From Gemmatimonadota bacterium (GTDB lineage: Bacteria > JAAXHH01): a DNA stretch of 64,000 nucleotides. This document shows positions 25,188-53,750 of the stretch, one piece after another. Numbering within the stretch: position 1 is the stretch's first letter; each line of letters begins with the position of its first letter. Position numbers and translations under genes: made by a program. The DNA lies in the NCBI GenBank assembly GCA_009837395.1, contig VXTP01000030.1, positions 83,211-147,210 on the forward strand, written 5' to 3'. The notes beneath the pieces were generated by a model, which did not search any database, was not told where the DNA came from, and saw nothing but the letters and a program-made list of their open reading frames with translations.

Positions 25188-25263
25188 AAGTTACTCGCGA
25201 ACCATCGACAATTCGGATATCTCAACAGCCTTCCGCTTACTTTATTCCAAAGTGAGGCGACGT

Positions 25264-26055
25264 ATGCGCCGCTTGTGGAAAGAAATGAATCGAACGCTCC
25301 TGATGTCGGGCCTGCTTGCAGGAATGATCGGAATCGCATGCAGCGGGACGACGGTCGAGGAGGAATCCGCGGCCGTCAGCACCGAGACGATCGGCACCGA
25401 GATCGGCCATATAGCGCCGAACTTTGAAGTGTATACCATGGATGGCACGAAGGTCACCCTGGAGGACTTCCGGGGCCGGCCCCTGTTCGTGAACTTCTGG
25501 GCGTGGTGGTGCCCACCCTGCATCAGGGATGCGGAACCCCTGATGAACATCGCGAAAAAGTACGAGGGACGGATCGACTTCCTGTTCGTTGGCGTAAACA
25601 AATTCTACAGGGACGAGCAACCGCTCGATCCCGCGGAATTTGAGGAAGGATTCGGCCCCGGGCTGGACCTGTTCAAGCGAGAACTTCAGGCGTCCAGGCT
25701 GGTTCGTCCTTCCGACGAATCGGAGAAGAACGATCCGGAGATTATGGCCGGGATCGCGGCGCGGAACGAAGAAGTCATCGCGTACTATATGAACAGCCCG
25801 ACCTCCCTTTTCGATTTCCGCGGCTACTGGGAACGCCAGTTCCGTGCCAAGACCAACCAGCGATACGGGATTCCCGTCACCTACCTGATCGACAGCGGGG
25901 GGCGCATCAAGCTGGACGTCCACCCCAACGATCAGCACTGGGACAAGCACGACGATATCCTGGAAGACCTGATCGCGGGCAAGGACCTGTCCCACTACGC
26001 GGAGCGCTTCCCCATTCCACCTAAACACCAGCGCGAGGAGGCGGCGGGAAGCTGA
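25264..26055 (+). CDS. TlpA/thioredoxin-like lipoprotein
   Basis: A 263-aa exported thiol-disulfide protein. A signal peptide ends in a lipobox (GIAC, Cys26), so it is probably lipid-anchored. The fold starts at IGHIAPNFEVYTMDGTKV, the active site is C83-PP-C86 in WAWWCPPC, and a late VTYLIDSGGRIKLDVHP strand follows. An insertion of about 90 residues lies between them. ATG 25264 follows GAGG; GTG 25252 is possible but lacks a site. Its stop overlaps the proposed CTG start of the metalloprotease gene. Confidence 0.85.
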   Translation: MRRLWKEMNRTLLMSGLLAGMIGIACSGTTVEEESAAVSTETIGTEIGHIAPNFEVYTMDGTKVTLEDFRGRPLFVNFWAWWCPPCIRDAEPLMNIAKKYEGRIDFLFVGVNKFYRDEQPLDPAEFEEGFGPGLDLFKRELQASRLVRPSDESEKNDPEIMAGIAARNEEVIAYYMNSPTSLFDFRGYWERQFRAKTNQRYGIPVTYLIDSGGRIKLDVHPNDQHWDKHDDILEDLIAGKDLSHYAERFPIPPKHQREEAAGS

Positions 26056-27860
26056 TCACCGGTACGATAGCTTTCTTCAAGCGTCTTTTCCTGGCCTGTA
26101 TCGCCGGTGCGGTCACCCACGCCGGCGTATACGCCCAGGAACCCTCCGGTCAACGCTGCGGTACGCTGCACCTCCATCCCTTCGTCCAGCCCCCTGAGGG
26201 CGGGCTCGCCGCCCGGGCCCACCGGCCCGAACAGGTCGGCCCGGGCAGGCCCACCATACCCGGCGAAGGGGACCGCACGAACAACCTGGGCCATACCTAT
26301 ACGGCAGAGCCCGAATTCTACGTCAGTCCCGGCGGCCACTTCAAGATCTGGTACGTCACCACGACCGAAGACCGGCCCGGTGCGGGCTGGCCGGCACTGG
26401 AAGACGAAGCAGGCGGCGCCGTTCCCGAATATGTCCGATACTGCGGGTTATTCCTGGATGAATCCCGCCGTGTCATCGTGGAAGAACTGGGTTACCGTCC
26501 GCCGCCCGTGGACTTTGATCATCACGATCGATACGAGGCGATGGATGCGGACGATGGCGGGGACGGGCTATATGACGTCTATATAACCGATCTCCCGAGT
26601 CAGTTCAGTGGTTATACCCGCCCGGAAGCGGTCACGACCGGCGCGGCCCTCCCTTCGTACATCGTCGTGGACAACGACTACGCCGAGTCCCGGAGGACGG
26701 TGGAGAAGGCGCTGGACCTGCTGCGAATCACTCTCGCCCACGAGTACTTCCACGCCGTGCAGTTCGGTTACGACGCGGGGGAAGAGGCTTTCTGGCTGGA
26801 ACAGAGCGCCGTGTGGATGGAGGAGCAGGTCTATGACGAGGTCGACGATTACCTGACCTACCTGCCCACGTTCAGCGGTTTCCTGACCGAGCCATGGATA
26901 TCGCTCGATACGGCGAACGGGGAGCATGAATACGCGGGCGTGCTCTGGCCGCTGTACCTGGAAAAGCGGCACGACCGGGACCTGATCCGCGGCATCTGGG
27001 AACGGGCCAGGACGAGCCGGGCGCTGGATGCCATCGACGGGGGGCTGCGCAGCGTCGGCAGCGATCTGAAATCAGCCTTCCATGAATTCACCACGTGGAA
27101 CGTCTTCACCGGGGACCGGGCCAACGCGGACCGGTTCTACGAAGAAGGCGCCGCCTACCCTCAGGTCGAACTGAGCGGATTGCATGAACCCGATCTCCAG
27201 GGCGCATCGGGCACGTATCTTTTCGACGGTCCCCTGATCCCCGCCCACCAGTATCCGGCCCACCTTGCCGCGAATTACATACGCTTCGTCCCGGATCCGT
27301 CGCTTTCCGGCGGGCTGCGCATCGATTTCACGGGCATAACCGGAGAATGGGGCGTATCCGTGGCGGCCAGCGGCGCCGTCGACACGGTGATGACGGCTCC
27401 CGCGACCCGGGGAAGTGTGACCATCGAGATACCCGATTGGACGCGGTACGAGACGGTCATGCTCGTGGTGGCGACGCTCGATCGCACCGGAGACGGTTTC
27501 GAATACGCTTACACGGCGGCCTTCGATCCAGGTCTTACGGGCGACGACCAGGCTGGCCGGCCGATTGCCGCGTCCCTCACCACCTATCCGAATCCATTCT
27601 ACCTGAGCAACGGACCCGCCACCGTCCGATACGAAGTCGGCCGGCCGGGTGAGGTTCAGCTCACCCTGTACAACGTTATGGGCCGGAAGGTCCGCACGCT
27701 GGTGGACGGCAACCATGACGAGGGCACGTTCACCACCACGTGGGACGGGAAGGACGATGGGGGAAGAAGGGTGGCCAGCGGGGTCTATCTGTGCCGGATG
27801 ACGACCGGAGGGACGGCGGAGCGTTCCGAAGTAACGCGCAAGCTGTTGTTCCTAAAATAG
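26052..27860 (+). CDS. secreted MXAN_6640-like zinc metalloprotease with FlgD-like C-terminal domain; apparent CTG start
   Basis: A 602-aa exported protein. From CTG 26052 the frame gives a signal peptide (FFKRLFLACIAGAV to VYAQEP), then QRCGTLHLHPF and GHFKIWYVTTTEDRP, matching the start of MXAN_6640-type putative proteases. The zinc motif is HEYFH (230-234), and a FlgD/T9SS-like domain closes the protein (YPNPF to KLLFLK). No ATG, GTG or TTG exists between the in-frame TAA at 26022 and the signal peptide; the first usual start would be GTG 26478, which removes about 140 residues. CTG 26052 overlaps the upstream stop as CTGA, with GAGGAGG ten bases before. Confidence 0.7.
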   Translation: MITGTIAFFKRLFLACIAGAVTHAGVYAQEPSGQRCGTLHLHPFVQPPEGGLAARAHRPEQVGPGRPTIPGEGDRTNNLGHTYTAEPEFYVSPGGHFKIWYVTTTEDRPGAGWPALEDEAGGAVPEYVRYCGLFLDESRRVIVEELGYRPPPVDFDHHDRYEAMDADDGGDGLYDVYITDLPSQFSGYTRPEAVTTGAALPSYIVVDNDYAESRRTVEKALDLLRITLAHEYFHAVQFGYDAGEEAFWLEQSAVWMEEQVYDEVDDYLTYLPTFSGFLTEPWISLDTANGEHEYAGVLWPLYLEKRHDRDLIRGIWERARTSRALDAIDGGLRSVGSDLKSAFHEFTTWNVFTGDRANADRFYEEGAAYPQVELSGLHEPDLQGASGTYLFDGPLIPAHQYPAHLAANYIRFVPDPSLSGGLRIDFTGITGEWGVSVAASGAVDTVMTAPATRGSVTIEIPDWTRYETVMLVVATLDRTGDGFEYAYTAAFDPGLTGDDQAGRPIAASLTTYPNPFYLSNGPATVRYEVGRPGEVQLTLYNVMGRKVRTLVDGNHDEGTFTTTWDGKDDGGRRVASGVYLCRMTTGGTAERSEVTRKLLFLK

Positions 27861-43997: not shown

Positions 43998-44298
43998 CCG
44001 GTCTTCCCCGGCGCACGGATTTTCCGGGTTCCGTCGCCGATCTGAGGGGATCAAAACACAGGCCCCCGGCCGAAACCGGGGGCCTGTATATAAAATAAAA
44101 AAAGGCGAAGAACGGGAAACCGGTCAACAAATGCCGACTCGAAGCACGATGTCAACCGCGAGTCGTCTCCCGGTCCCTCACGGAATATCTACATCGTTGT
44201 CAGCTCGGCGTCAAGCTCAAATTCCAGGCCGGAAAGCCGTACCATATTCTTCCACGAAAACCGAACGGGACGTCTTCGTCCACAAAAGAACAGAAGGG
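43998..44298. other. central part of a 499-base divergent intergenic region
   Basis: The whole gap is 43922-44420. Beyond the PhyH promoter, the hairpin at 44058-44087 and the kor promoter at 44299, I find no gene. The A-rich stretch at 44088-44104 is lower in GC than its surroundings. Confidence 0.5.
44058..44087. terminator. perfect 12-bp stem hairpin
   Basis: ACAGGCCCCCGG pairs with CCGGGGGCCTGT around a six-base loop CCGAAA. On the minus strand it is followed by TTTTGA; on the plus strand by A-rich DNA. As a terminator it would act leftward, but no leftward gene lies to its right. Confidence 0.5.
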
Positions 44299-44327
44299 TT
44301 GACACCCCACCTGGGACTGTGTATTTT
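44299..44327 (+). promoter_or_regulatory. sigma70 promoter of the 2-oxoacid:ferredoxin oxidoreductase operon
   Basis: Perfect TTGACA at 44299-44304, 17 bases, TATTTT at 44322-44327, about 93 bases before ATG 44421. Confidence 0.7.
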
Positions 44328-44420
44328 GTTGGTTCCCACTATGCTGTGTACTACCTTTACAGAAACGCGTACGCACGTCGGCAGATCAGCTTGTCCGTGA
44401 TGTACAGACAGGAGAATCCG

Positions 44421-46271
44421 ATGAGTTCAGAAAGATTCGACTTTGCCATTGCCATAGGCGGCGCCGCGGGCCAGGGTATCGCCACACCGGGCAACGTGCT
44501 CGCCCGGATATTCATCCGCCGCGGACTGCATCTCAACGCCTACAATGCCTACCAGTCGATCATCCGGGGCGGTCATATTTTCCTCACGATGAGGATCAGC
44601 GATGAACCGGTCCACAACCATGGCGATAAACTCGACCTGCTGGTCTGCCTGAACCAGGATACGATGGACCGGCACCTGGGCCTCATGGGACCCGGCACGC
44701 GGGTCCTCTACAACAGCGACACGATCACGCCCGGCACCCCGGAAGACGGCGTGCACCTCTGCCCGCTGCCCATCAACGAACTGACCGACAACAACCGCAA
44801 CAAGCTCGTGCAGAATACCGTGGCACTCGGGACGATCCTCTACCTGCTCGATGTGGATTTCCAGATTCTGGAAGACATCATCACCATGCAGTTTCAGCGC
44901 AAGGGGCAGGAAGTGGTCGATGAGAACGTGGGCGTGGCCCGCGCGGGATACGACTACGCCGCGGCGCACTTCGAACCTTTCACGCAGTCCCTGCCTTCCG
45001 GCGGCAAGCCACTTGCCGTATGGACGGGCAACGACGCGCTCGCCATGGGCGGCGCGTCCGCCGGGGTCAAGTTCTACTGCGCCTATCCCATGAGTCCCTC
45101 CACGGGCGTCCTCCACTGGATGGCGCAGAACGCGCGGGAACTGGGCATCATGGTGCGGCAGGTCGAAGACGAGATCGGCGTGGCCAACATGGCCATCGGC
45201 GCAGCCCACGTGGGCTGCCGGTCCATGTGCGCCACGTCGGGCGGCGGCTTCGCCCTGATGACCGAGGCCGTGGGCAGCGCGGCCATGATGGAAATCCCGG
45301 TCGTCTTCATCGACGTGCAGCGCGCCGGTCCATCCACGGGCGTACCGACCAAGACGGAGCAGGGCGATCTCTGGCAGGTTCTCGGCGCGAGCCAGGGCGA
45401 TTTCGAGCGGTTTATCGTGGCGCCGACCGATGCGCTGGATGCTTTCAATACCGTGCCCGAACTGTTCAACCTGGTGGATCAATTCCAGTGCCCCGGCATC
45501 GTGATATCCGATCTGCTGATCTCCGAAGGCACCTTCAGCGTCGACCCGGACGCCATCGACATGCAACCCGGAATAAACCGGGGCGAGCTGATCACCGAGT
45601 CCGGGAACGGCGCGAGCGACATCCCGACGGGTTCGCAGCTTTCCAACGGGCACGGCCTCATCGGCGCGCCGAGCAACGGTTACCTGCGGTACGTGAACAC
45701 GGAAAGCGGGATTTCTCCACGCGCACTGCCGGGCGTGGAGGGATACGCCCACGTGGTGGCTACCGACGAACATGATGAAGACGGCGTCCTGGTCAGCGAC
45801 GAGTTCACCAATCCCCACAAGCGGCGCAAGATGGTGGAAAAACGTGCCCGGAAGTTCAAGAACGTCGCGGAGCGCATCGACCCGCCCGTGCTTTCCGGTT
45901 CGAGCGCCGAAGACGCCGAGATCACGCTCATCGGCTGGGGATCGACCCTCGGCGTGATCCGGGAGGCGGTGGAGATCCTGAACCGCGAGGGCGTCGCCGT
46001 GAACCACCTGCCGATCAAGTGGATCGTCCCTCTTCACGTGGACGCCATCCAGGAAGTCTTCGACCAGGCGAAAAAGACCGTGATCGTTGAGAACAATCAT
46101 TCCGGCCAGTTCCACCGGTATCTGCGCAGCGAGACCGGGCTTTCGGCCGACGGCCACATCCGGAAGTACGACGGCGAGCCGTTCATGCCCCATCATATCG
46201 TGGACGGCGTCCGGGAATTGCTGGCCGGAACGACGGACATCTTCGTGCCCTATCAAGAAGTCATCGTCTAA
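44421..46271 (+). CDS. korA: 2-oxoacid:acceptor oxidoreductase, fused gamma-alpha subunit (KorA-like)
   Basis: A 616-aa subunit of a ferredoxin-linked oxidoreductase that decarboxylates a 2-oxoacid to its acyl-CoA. Residues 1 to about 190 are the gamma domain (IGGAAGQGIATPGNVLARIF, GGHIFLTMRIS). The alpha domain follows with YPMSPSTGVLHWMAQNA, a good match to the YPITPST motif, and VEDEIGVANMAIGAAHVG. The kor-type fusion with a separate beta gene suggests 2-oxoglutarate, but pyruvate or branched substrates cannot be excluded. GGAG precedes ATG 44421. Confidence 0.88.
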   Translation: MSSERFDFAIAIGGAAGQGIATPGNVLARIFIRRGLHLNAYNAYQSIIRGGHIFLTMRISDEPVHNHGDKLDLLVCLNQDTMDRHLGLMGPGTRVLYNSDTITPGTPEDGVHLCPLPINELTDNNRNKLVQNTVALGTILYLLDVDFQILEDIITMQFQRKGQEVVDENVGVARAGYDYAAAHFEPFTQSLPSGGKPLAVWTGNDALAMGGASAGVKFYCAYPMSPSTGVLHWMAQNARELGIMVRQVEDEIGVANMAIGAAHVGCRSMCATSGGGFALMTEAVGSAAMMEIPVVFIDVQRAGPSTGVPTKTEQGDLWQVLGASQGDFERFIVAPTDALDAFNTVPELFNLVDQFQCPGIVISDLLISEGTFSVDPDAIDMQPGINRGELITESGNGASDIPTGSQLSNGHGLIGAPSNGYLRYVNTESGISPRALPGVEGYAHVVATDEHDEDGVLVSDEFTNPHKRRKMVEKRARKFKNVAERIDPPVLSGSSAEDAEITLIGWGSTLGVIREAVEILNREGVAVNHLPIKWIVPLHVDAIQEVFDQAKKTVIVENNHSGQFHRYLRSETGLSADGHIRKYDGEPFMPHHIVDGVRELLAGTTDIFVPYQEVIV

Positions 46272-51384: not shown

Positions 51385-51512
51385 TATATCAAGATATAGC
51401 CGTATCCATCGGGCGTTAGCCACCACACACGGGGCGATAATCCGGGATCTACGCCCAGATGATTCCGGGCACGGGGCATAGTACAAGAGACGGTGCGCAG
51501 GGGTTTTCAGTT

Positions 51513-51920
51513 ATGGACAAGGATGTAGCCGTATTCAAAGCCTGTTCGGACGCGACGCGCCTCCGCATACTGTTCCTGCTGACCGAACGGGAACTATGCG
51601 TGTGCGAAATCATGGCGGTCCTGGACATGCCCCAGGGCAAGATCTCCCGGCACCTGGCCGTGCTGAAGCAATACGGCCTGCTTACGGACCGCCGCGACGG
51701 AGTCTGGATCTACTACGCGCTGGCCACAGACTCCTCGATCGCGATGAAGTACGTATCGGTGTATCTCGTCTCGGCCCGCCAGGTCCACGAACGGGTCCAG
51801 GCGGACCTGGACCGGTTGCGCGGATTGGCCGATGAGGGCAAGATCTGCGTGCCCCGGCCCTCCATGGCGCTGCTACAGGTCGACGAACGTGAAGACCCGG
51901 CCTTGCTGGGCCAACCCTGA
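51513..51920 (+). CDS. arsR: ArsR-family metalloregulatory repressor
   Basis: A 135-aa winged-helix repressor. The helix-turn-helix includes LDMPQGKISRHLAVLKQYGL and the wing DRRDGVWIYYAL. The arsenite-binding motif ELCVCEI has Cys29 and Cys31 on the recognition-adjacent helix, and Cys11 may be the third ligand. Arsenite binding should release it from its operator. The frame opens at 51459, but ATG 51513 matches the family start. It precedes an arsenate reductase-like gene and acr3. Confidence 0.93.
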   Translation: MDKDVAVFKACSDATRLRILFLLTERELCVCEIMAVLDMPQGKISRHLAVLKQYGLLTDRRDGVWIYYALATDSSIAMKYVSVYLVSARQVHERVQADLDRLRGLADEGKICVPRPSMALLQVDEREDPALLGQP

Positions 51921-51943
51921 CTGATGCGGAAGGAGCGGCGACC

Positions 51944-52639
51944 CTGGTCCCCGACGAATCTGGTTTCTACCCCGACCTCAGCCGTTATCTGCAGGCGCGA
52001 CTGGCGGAATCCAGCCAGATTCCGGCCGACCGCAGACAGACGCTGGACCGTGTTTCGGCGTATGTCTCCGCGCGGATTAGAAGCGGTGAGCCGGCCCAAC
52101 TGATCTTCATCTGCACACACAACTCCCGCCGGAGCCAGTTGGCCCAGATCTGGGCGTACACCGCCGCGCGGTTCTTCGGCATACAGGGAGTTGCCACCTA
52201 CTCCGGCGGAATGGAGGCCACCGACTTCGATCCGAGGGCCGTATCTGCGATGGTCCGGGCGGGATTCCGGGTCGAAAGGCAATCGAAGGAGGCCAACACG
52301 GTATTTCTCGTTCACGCGGGGAGCGAGATTCCCCCGGTGCGCGCGTTCTCCAAGGCTTACCACGATCCATCGAATCCACAGCACGGTTTCTGCGCGGTAC
52401 TGACCTGTTCGAGCGCCGACCGCGAATGTCCGGTGATACCCAGCGCGGACCGGCGCGTGCTCGTCCCCTACGAGGACCCGAAGTCCGCCGACGGCACGGA
52501 ACGGGAGGCGGAGGTCTACGACGAAAGGTGCCGGGAGATCTGCCGGGAGATGGTATGGCTGTTCGCGAGGACGGAGGGAGCGGCCGGGACGGGCGGGACT
52601 GACCAAGCGGCCGGGACGGACCAAGCGGCCAATGCGTGA
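51944..52639 (+). CDS. arsC: arsenate reductase, low-molecular-weight tyrosine phosphatase type; apparent CTG start
   Basis: A 231-aa protein. The phosphatase P-loop CTHNSRRS starts at Cys57 (CX5R) and [14 protein letters not shown] follows, as in Bacteroidota-type arsenate reductase-like phosphatases, which share the N-terminal [10 protein letters not shown] and [10 protein letters not shown] helices. No ATG, GTG or TTG precedes the P-loop in this frame; the first, TTG 52139, lies nine codons past the catalytic Cys. CTG 51944 has AAGGAG (51930-51935) eight bases upstream and gives the expected N-terminus. The C-terminus carries a TDQAA repeat. It reduces arsenate to arsenite for export by Acr3. 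Confidence 0.8.
52601..52630 (+). repeat. 18-bp period repeat at the 3' end of arsC
   Basis: GACCAAGCGGCC is exact at 52601-52612 and 52619-52630, encoding TDQAAG then TDQAAN. Related GCGGCCGGGACG copies flank it. Confidence 0.8.
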
Positions 52640-52709: not shown

Positions 52710-53750
52710 ATGAATACAACGACGACTAAACTGTCGGTGCGCGACCGGTACCTGACCCTCTGGATCTTCCTGGCCATGGGCCTCGGCGTCGGGCTTGGCG
52801 TATGGACGCCGGAGGTGCCCGCCCTGATCCAGCTCGGGCAGGTGGGCACGACCAATCTGCCCATCGCCATCGGGCTCATCCTGATGATGTATCCCCCGCT
52901 GGCCAAGGTGAAGTACGAGGAACTGTGGGACGTGTTCCGCAACGTAAGGATCCTCGGCGCGTCCCTCTTCCTGAACTGGGTCGTCGGCCCCATCCTCATG
53001 TTCGGACTCGCCGCGCTCTTCCTGCCGGCGCATCCCGAGTACATGACCGGCCTGATCCTCATCGGCCTGGCCCGGTGCATCGCCATGGTCATCGTGTGGA
53101 ACGAACTGGCGAAGGGAAACACGGAGTATGCCGCCGGTCTCGTGGCCTTCAACAGCCTGTTCCAGGTCTTCTTCTATAGCGTGTACGCCTACGTCTTCAT
53201 CACGGTGCTGCCACCCTGGTTCGGGCTGGAGGGCAGCGTCGTGCCGGTAACGATCGTGCAGATCGCCGAAAGCGTGCTCATCTACCTGGGCATTCCCTTC
53301 TTCGGCGGGATGGCGACCCGCCTGGTCCTGCTGCGGCTCAAGGGAAGGCCGTGGTACGAGTCGACCTTCATCCCCCGCATCAGTCCCATCACCCTGGTGG
53401 CGCTGCTGTTCACCATCGTGGTCATGTTCAGCCTGAAGGGCGATACGATCGTGGCTATCCCCCTTGACGTGGTCCGGATCGCCGTTCCGCTCCTCGTCTA
53501 TTTCGTGCTCATGTTCCTGATCACCTTCTGGATGGGACGGAAGATCGGCGCGGACTATTCAAAGAACGCCACGCTTTCCTTCACGGCCGCGAGCAACAAC
53601 TTCGAACTGGCCATCGCCGTGGCCGTAGCCGTCTTCGGCATCGAATCGGGCGTGGCCTTCGCGGCCGTCATCGGCCCCCTCGTCGAGGTGCCGGTCATGA
53701 TCGCGCTGGTCAACGTGGCCCTGCGTTTCCGGCGCATGTATGACCGGTAA
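52710..53750 (+). CDS. acr3: arsenite efflux transporter Acr3
   Basis: A 346-aa membrane protein with about ten helices that expels arsenite using the proton gradient. The essential Cys123 in [18 protein letters not shown], and the [17 protein letters not shown] and [20 protein letters not shown] segments are diagnostic. The frame opens at 52632 but ATG 52710 gives the usual N-terminus. It completes the arsR-arsC-acr3 operon, 70 bases after arsC. Confidence 0.95.

Follow-up and report, generated by a model that had tools for sequence, protein, structure and literature searches.

In E. coli, infC starts at ATT, and in Streptomyces, sigR starts at GTC (PMC5472188). Both resemble the arsC gene described here in having no usable canonical start and in the repression by IF3 that is expected of them, as far as the account in PMC5472188 goes; infC and sigR, however, are presented there as experimentally characterised and regulatory, whereas the arsC case is limited to one species and is predicted from sequence. 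According to PMC11497404, CUG is a very poor start codon in E. coli, at 0.86% of AUG, and accounts for 0.024% of bacterial initiation codons. Our search of the literature on CTG or CUG starts in bacteria found few relevant reports.

Start-codon switches with compensating Shine-Dalgarno changes have been described by Belinky, Rogozin and Koonin (2017, PMC5622118), and the arsC case is like them in that a point change separates close species and the ribosome-binding site is strong. The switches covered in that report are among AUG, GUG and UUG, whereas the arsC codon becomes the non-start GCG and the start would move two codons, to CTG. It is a known kind of event, of which this arsC is a new example: a clear natural loss of a start codon, seen by comparing closely related species, for which a CTG two codons downstream is the likely substitute.

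The protein itself resembles the thioredoxin-coupled ArsC of the pI258 type (low-molecular-weight phosphatase fold), with which it shares the CX5R P-loop and another pair of cysteines spaced seven residues apart, and it sits in an arsR-arsC-acr3 operon. Unlike that type, it has about 50 extra N-terminal residues, and its TIGR02691 score of 50.9 bits is below the curated cut-off of 174.3 bits. It could be aligned to the ArsC chain 1jl3_A, with the catalytic Cys and the two Cys seven residues apart present, and it probably reduces arsenate, judging from family resemblance and operon context.

The arsC frame and its start region

We analysed a 64,000-nt stretch (the window) of contig C16 (279,014 bases) of G000, the genome of an uncultured bacterium; positions are those of the window unless a contig or locus is named. 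The operon order in the window is arsR-arsC-acr3, and the features that concern us are as follows.

51459..51920, + strand: arsR-type regulator (HTH_5 6.3e-17, NF033788 3.6e-26), likely start ATG 51513
51893..52639, + strand: arsC open frame, stop to stop, with homologues in 11 of 11 congeners
51917-19, + strand: CTG, alternative in the arsC frame, overlapping the arsR stop as CTGA; no Shine-Dalgarno sequence, unconserved
51918-20, + strand: arsR stop TGA, 23 bases before CTG 51944
51930-35, + strand: AAGGAG, Shine-Dalgarno-like, 8 bases before CTG 51944
51938-40, + strand: GCG, remnant of the ancestral arsC start codon (alignment and separate codon listing)
51944-46, + strand: CTG, likeliest replacement arsC start (alignment and direct reading)
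51944-52639, + strand: arsC coding part in its likeliest extent, 231 aa
52112-14, + strand: codon of the catalytic P-loop Cys57 of arsC, numbered from the CTG (alignment)
52139-41, + strand: TTG, first canonical start in the arsC frame, downstream of the Cys57 codon
52637-39, + strand: arsC stop codon (direct reading)
52710..53750, + strand: acr3 arsenite efflux gene (TIGR00832 6.1e-135, above cut-off); its ORF is listed from ATG 52632, and ATG 52710 is the likely start

Read directly, the arsC frame contains no ATG, GTG or TTG upstream of TTG 52139, and because this TTG sits past the P-loop Cys codon, a product starting there would be without the active-site Cys. Homologues from outside the genus also have the N-terminal helices, and two of them (L035 and L045) begin exactly at the YP motif; a product from TTG 52139 would thus miss the helices in addition to the active-site Cys, and translation cannot start downstream of about 51965. 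Gene callers restricted to ATG, GTG and TTG would cut this arsC past its active site. The original prediction had placed the arsC start at a CTG upstream of every canonical start, with the TTG lying past Cys57, and all details of this description that could be checked agree with the sequence; direct reading likewise confirmed its AAGGAG at 8 bases from CTG 51944.

Six in-frame NTG codons precede TTG 52139, all of them CTG (51917, 51944, 51989, 52001, 52043 and 52100), together with the near-cognate codons ATT 52019, ATT 52076, ATC 52103 and ATC 52109. GTC 51947, which adjoins CTG 51944 and is farther from the Shine-Dalgarno sequence, was considered as an alternative start. We rejected CTG 51917, where CTGA lies on the arsR stop, for want of a Shine-Dalgarno sequence and of conservation, and also a frameshift into arsC from ATG 51924 (in the old frame of arsR), since the congeners have a plain in-frame start and no shift is needed. 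On the window's contig, 1.3% of 2807 internal in-frame CTG codons have a Shine-Dalgarno match of at least 6 bases at that distance. Of 66,264 internal codons of the same contig, 4.2% are CTG, which puts the chance of a CTG at about 4% for that one codon and about 12% across three given codons. A search of the assembly for 16S rRNA found none.

Start codons and selection in congener arsC genes

The arsC protein was sought in 59 genomes, its own included, and 27 matched, among them all 11 congeners, whose loci we put on the coding strand before listing and then aligning the start regions. In the column of 51938-40, all 11 congeners carry a canonical start codon (GTG in 8, ATG in 2 and TTG in 1, the last in a gene that also carries six extra bases further on), and this genome alone has GCG. 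The column of CTG 51944 reads CCG in 7 congeners, CGG in 1 and CAG in 3, with CTG conserved in none. A canonical start in 11 of 11 congeners versus GCG here indicates that an ancestral GTG was lost, by T to C at 51939. The proposal that arsC starts at CTG therefore stands in part: CTG 51944 is likely the best start available in this genome, whereas the orthologues start two codons upstream, a result close to the point change that the original prediction had itself named as refuting.

The alignment also bears on the surroundings of the old start. In all 11 congeners the start codon is followed by A (NTGA; GCGA here), and in 6 of them the TGA of this NTGA is the arsR stop, so that coupling of arsR and arsC looks ancestral. 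The arsR stop lies farther upstream of the arsC start in this genome and in G006, and at 23 bases before CTG 51944, coupling would need re-initiation. AAGGAG aligns with purine-rich sites ahead of the congeners' canonical start; G006 and G011 have GGGAGGAG where this genome has GGAAGGAG in the alignment, AAGGAG then being the best Shine-Dalgarno match. Its spacing is 8 bases to CTG 51944 and only 2 to GCG 51938. Because this site was the one used by the ancestral GTG, which stood 6 bases before the CTG, it is not independent evidence for the CTG. The only genome without the old start is, however, also the only one with an NTG at working distance, which favours CTG 51944 as the replacement.

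The gene is otherwise intact. Its frame runs through 231 codons without stops or frameshifts, and all 12 genus members retain the P-loop (FICTHN followed by S or A in the alignment), Cys57, Cys155 and Cys162. Against six congeners, dN/dS of arsC is 0.27-0.50, and among those six it is 0.24-0.44; the value of 0.50 between G000 and G010 is the highest of the 21 pairs computed. With five outgroups as references, G000 has a smaller dN than G010 in two comparisons and a larger one in three, and since this order is mixed, there is no consistent acceleration of G000 arsC relative to G010; nonsynonymous change does not appear clearly accelerated in this gene. We considered whether a second copy made the loss of the start tolerable, but no second arsC was found in the genome with the protein query, PF03960 or TIGR02691.

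Candidate CTG starts elsewhere and the initiation machinery

To look for further CTG starts, we compared gene starts with the corresponding syntenic regions of G006 and G008 and scored the point at which third-position changes set in, over 380 genes in 477 kb of the 3.80-Mb genome; the weights were chosen after first counts were seen. On the window's contig, 4 of 222 genes showed 4 bits or more of coding signal ahead of their first canonical start codon, namely arsC, the gene in the frame 26025-27857 of the window, an Ldh_2 dehydrogenase gene at C16:253414-254571 and one short stretch taken as noise. Had its start been lost, a gene would have been flagged in 121 of the 222 cases on this contig and in 99 of the 158 on a 198-kb stretch of contig C24, where the scan flagged 1 of 158 genes at 4 bits and a second one at 3 bits; each of these two signals is short and has no CTG. 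At the lower threshold of 3 bits, a scan centred on G006 picked out 5 of 247 genes and one centred on G008 picked out 5 of 253; both sets include Ldh_2, and neither includes arsC. The control, a genus with only two genomes, gave 0 flags in 95 genes, too few for comparing rates. The following flags were judged to be noise: C16:34258-35337 (11 codons, no CTG), C16:36062-37447 (15 codons, in the G006 scan only), C16:77367-78137 (3 codons) and the two on C24 (12 and 9 codons upstream). Credible cases thus number 3 in 380 genes (arsC, the 26052 gene and Ldh_2), 2 of them in this window and 0 in the C24 stretch.

Two genes besides arsC need description.

25252-26055, + strand: redoxin-like gene upstream of the 26052 gene; its TGA overlaps CTG 26052 (CTGA)
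26052-27857, + strand: gene for a FlgD_ig/DUF6055 secreted protein, frame from 26025, most sensible start CTG 26052
C16:253414-254571 (L127:7914-9071), outside the window: Ldh_2 dehydrogenase gene (PF02615), with CTG at C16:253486

The 26052 gene, which we assume to be the other CTG case of the original prediction, has AGGAGG upstream of its CTG, with ATC 26055 and ATA 26067 as alternative starts. The CTGA arrangement is common to six species (G000, G010, G007, G006, G002 and G003; G007 was read from its translation only), while G005 was left out of the comparison and G009 is incomplete. G001, G004, G008 and G011 carry in-frame ATG codons immediately ahead of the signal peptide, within a stretch absent from the six; among the six, some have a canonical codon farther in, inside the signal peptide or beyond it (G002 at +57, G003 at +141). 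CTG 26052 also belongs to the end of the upstream gene, so its conservation alone is no proof of a start. All 12 genus genomes have the Ldh_2 CTG, and 10 of them have no upstream in-frame canonical start; in G000 the nearest ATG downstream of this CTG is 15 codons away, and no clear Shine-Dalgarno sequence was found ahead of it. By sequence comparison, these two genes appear to be better candidates than arsC for conserved non-canonical starts, and they are the better leads to follow.

We also looked at the initiation machinery. Loci were fetched for 30 of 44 tRNA matches, and among them L112 holds a CAU tRNA with a GGG/CCC anticodon stem and a 1-72 mismatch, as expected of an initiator. With its CAU anticodon and GGG/CCC stem it looks normal, and we found no alteration of the kind that might accompany a relaxed choice of start codons. 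The initiator stem pairs G29-G31/C39-C41 are discussed in PMC11497404. The genome has one IF3 gene, whose infC start is an ATT (L086:1248, on G000:C47) after a GGGAGG-type site; the same arrangement occurs in 10 of 10 genus genomes in which that end is present, the gene being cut off there in 2 of 12, and one has to go back to a TTG within the last part of the preceding gene to find the first canonical codon of the infC frame. No loss of IF3 control was found in this comparison. A single IF3 gene with an ATT start suggests that IF3 discrimination is kept, so a CTG start should be weak.

A probable start relocation weighed against other explanations

We consider it probable, at roughly 60%, that the ancestral GTG of arsC was lost in one species and that CTG 51944 is a weak substitute start. 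A T-to-C transition would have turned the GTG into GCG at 51938, and initiation would most likely have moved two codons downstream to CTG 51944. Ribosomes may bind the AAGGAG left over from the old start, perhaps assisted by ribosomes that finish arsR 23 bases upstream, with initiator fMet-tRNA mispairing with the CUG. The expected ArsC output would be low and IF3-sensitive, with repression by IF3 presumed. Observed directly are the lack of a canonical start, the GCG that sets this genome apart from all 11 congeners, the Shine-Dalgarno sequence with its spacing and the intact frame; that the C at 51939 is real and that CTG 51944 is used, we infer from them.

Counted against CTG 51944 are the weakness of CUG in E. 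coli, the highest dN/dS occurring with G010 and the 23-base gap from the arsR stop. An error of assembly or of strain consensus would mean that the organism has GTG at 51938 and that the C at 51939 is wrong. A single base separates this genome from the state of 8 of 11 congeners, and the assembly, in 47 contigs and 95.61% complete, is probably a metagenome bin; such an error is nevertheless unlikely: that just this genome also carries a CTG at working distance would then be down to chance (about 4-12%), and a GTG at 51938 would have AAGGAG just 2 bases away. Slightly less likely still is that the loss is real and that no working ArsC is made, the gene being a young pseudogene in which stops have not yet gathered. 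The uninterrupted 231 codons, the three retained cysteines, the lack of a consistent nonsynonymous excess, the single copy of arsC and the intact neighbours arsR and acr3 all argue against a pseudogene, even if CUG gives very little product in E. coli, by the figures in PMC11497404, and the first canonical start yields a product without the catalytic Cys. The Shine-Dalgarno spacing and the NTG coincidence together make it more likely that the start has truly moved than that the assembly is wrong or the gene dead.

The further claim of the original prediction, that CTG initiation is a habit of this lineage with arsC as one instance, found no support and strikes us as very improbable. What can be said for it is that in 6 species another gene of the window (26052) has no sensible canonical start, and that all 12 genus genomes have the CTG of the Ldh_2 gene, which lies on the same contig. 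The arsC start is canonical in every congener, however, and the independent 198-kb stretch on C24 holds 0 credible cases in 158 genes at about 63% power; the initiator tRNA looks normal and infC retains its ATT start. A single gene that seems to start at CTG does not speak for a habit of the lineage until its orthologues have been checked, and the arsC change looks like an event of one species. A narrower idea, that the genus keeps a small, IF3-repressible set of CTG-start genes (26052 in 6 species, Ldh_2 in 12) which arsC has newly joined by relocation, is improbable; if it is true, CTG starts are seen here being gained and kept in nature.

A difference between canonical start codons was also seen in the window: at 44295/44319, in the ORF 44094-46268 (+ strand), three sister species have an ATG eight codons before the first canonical GTG, where the window has AGG.
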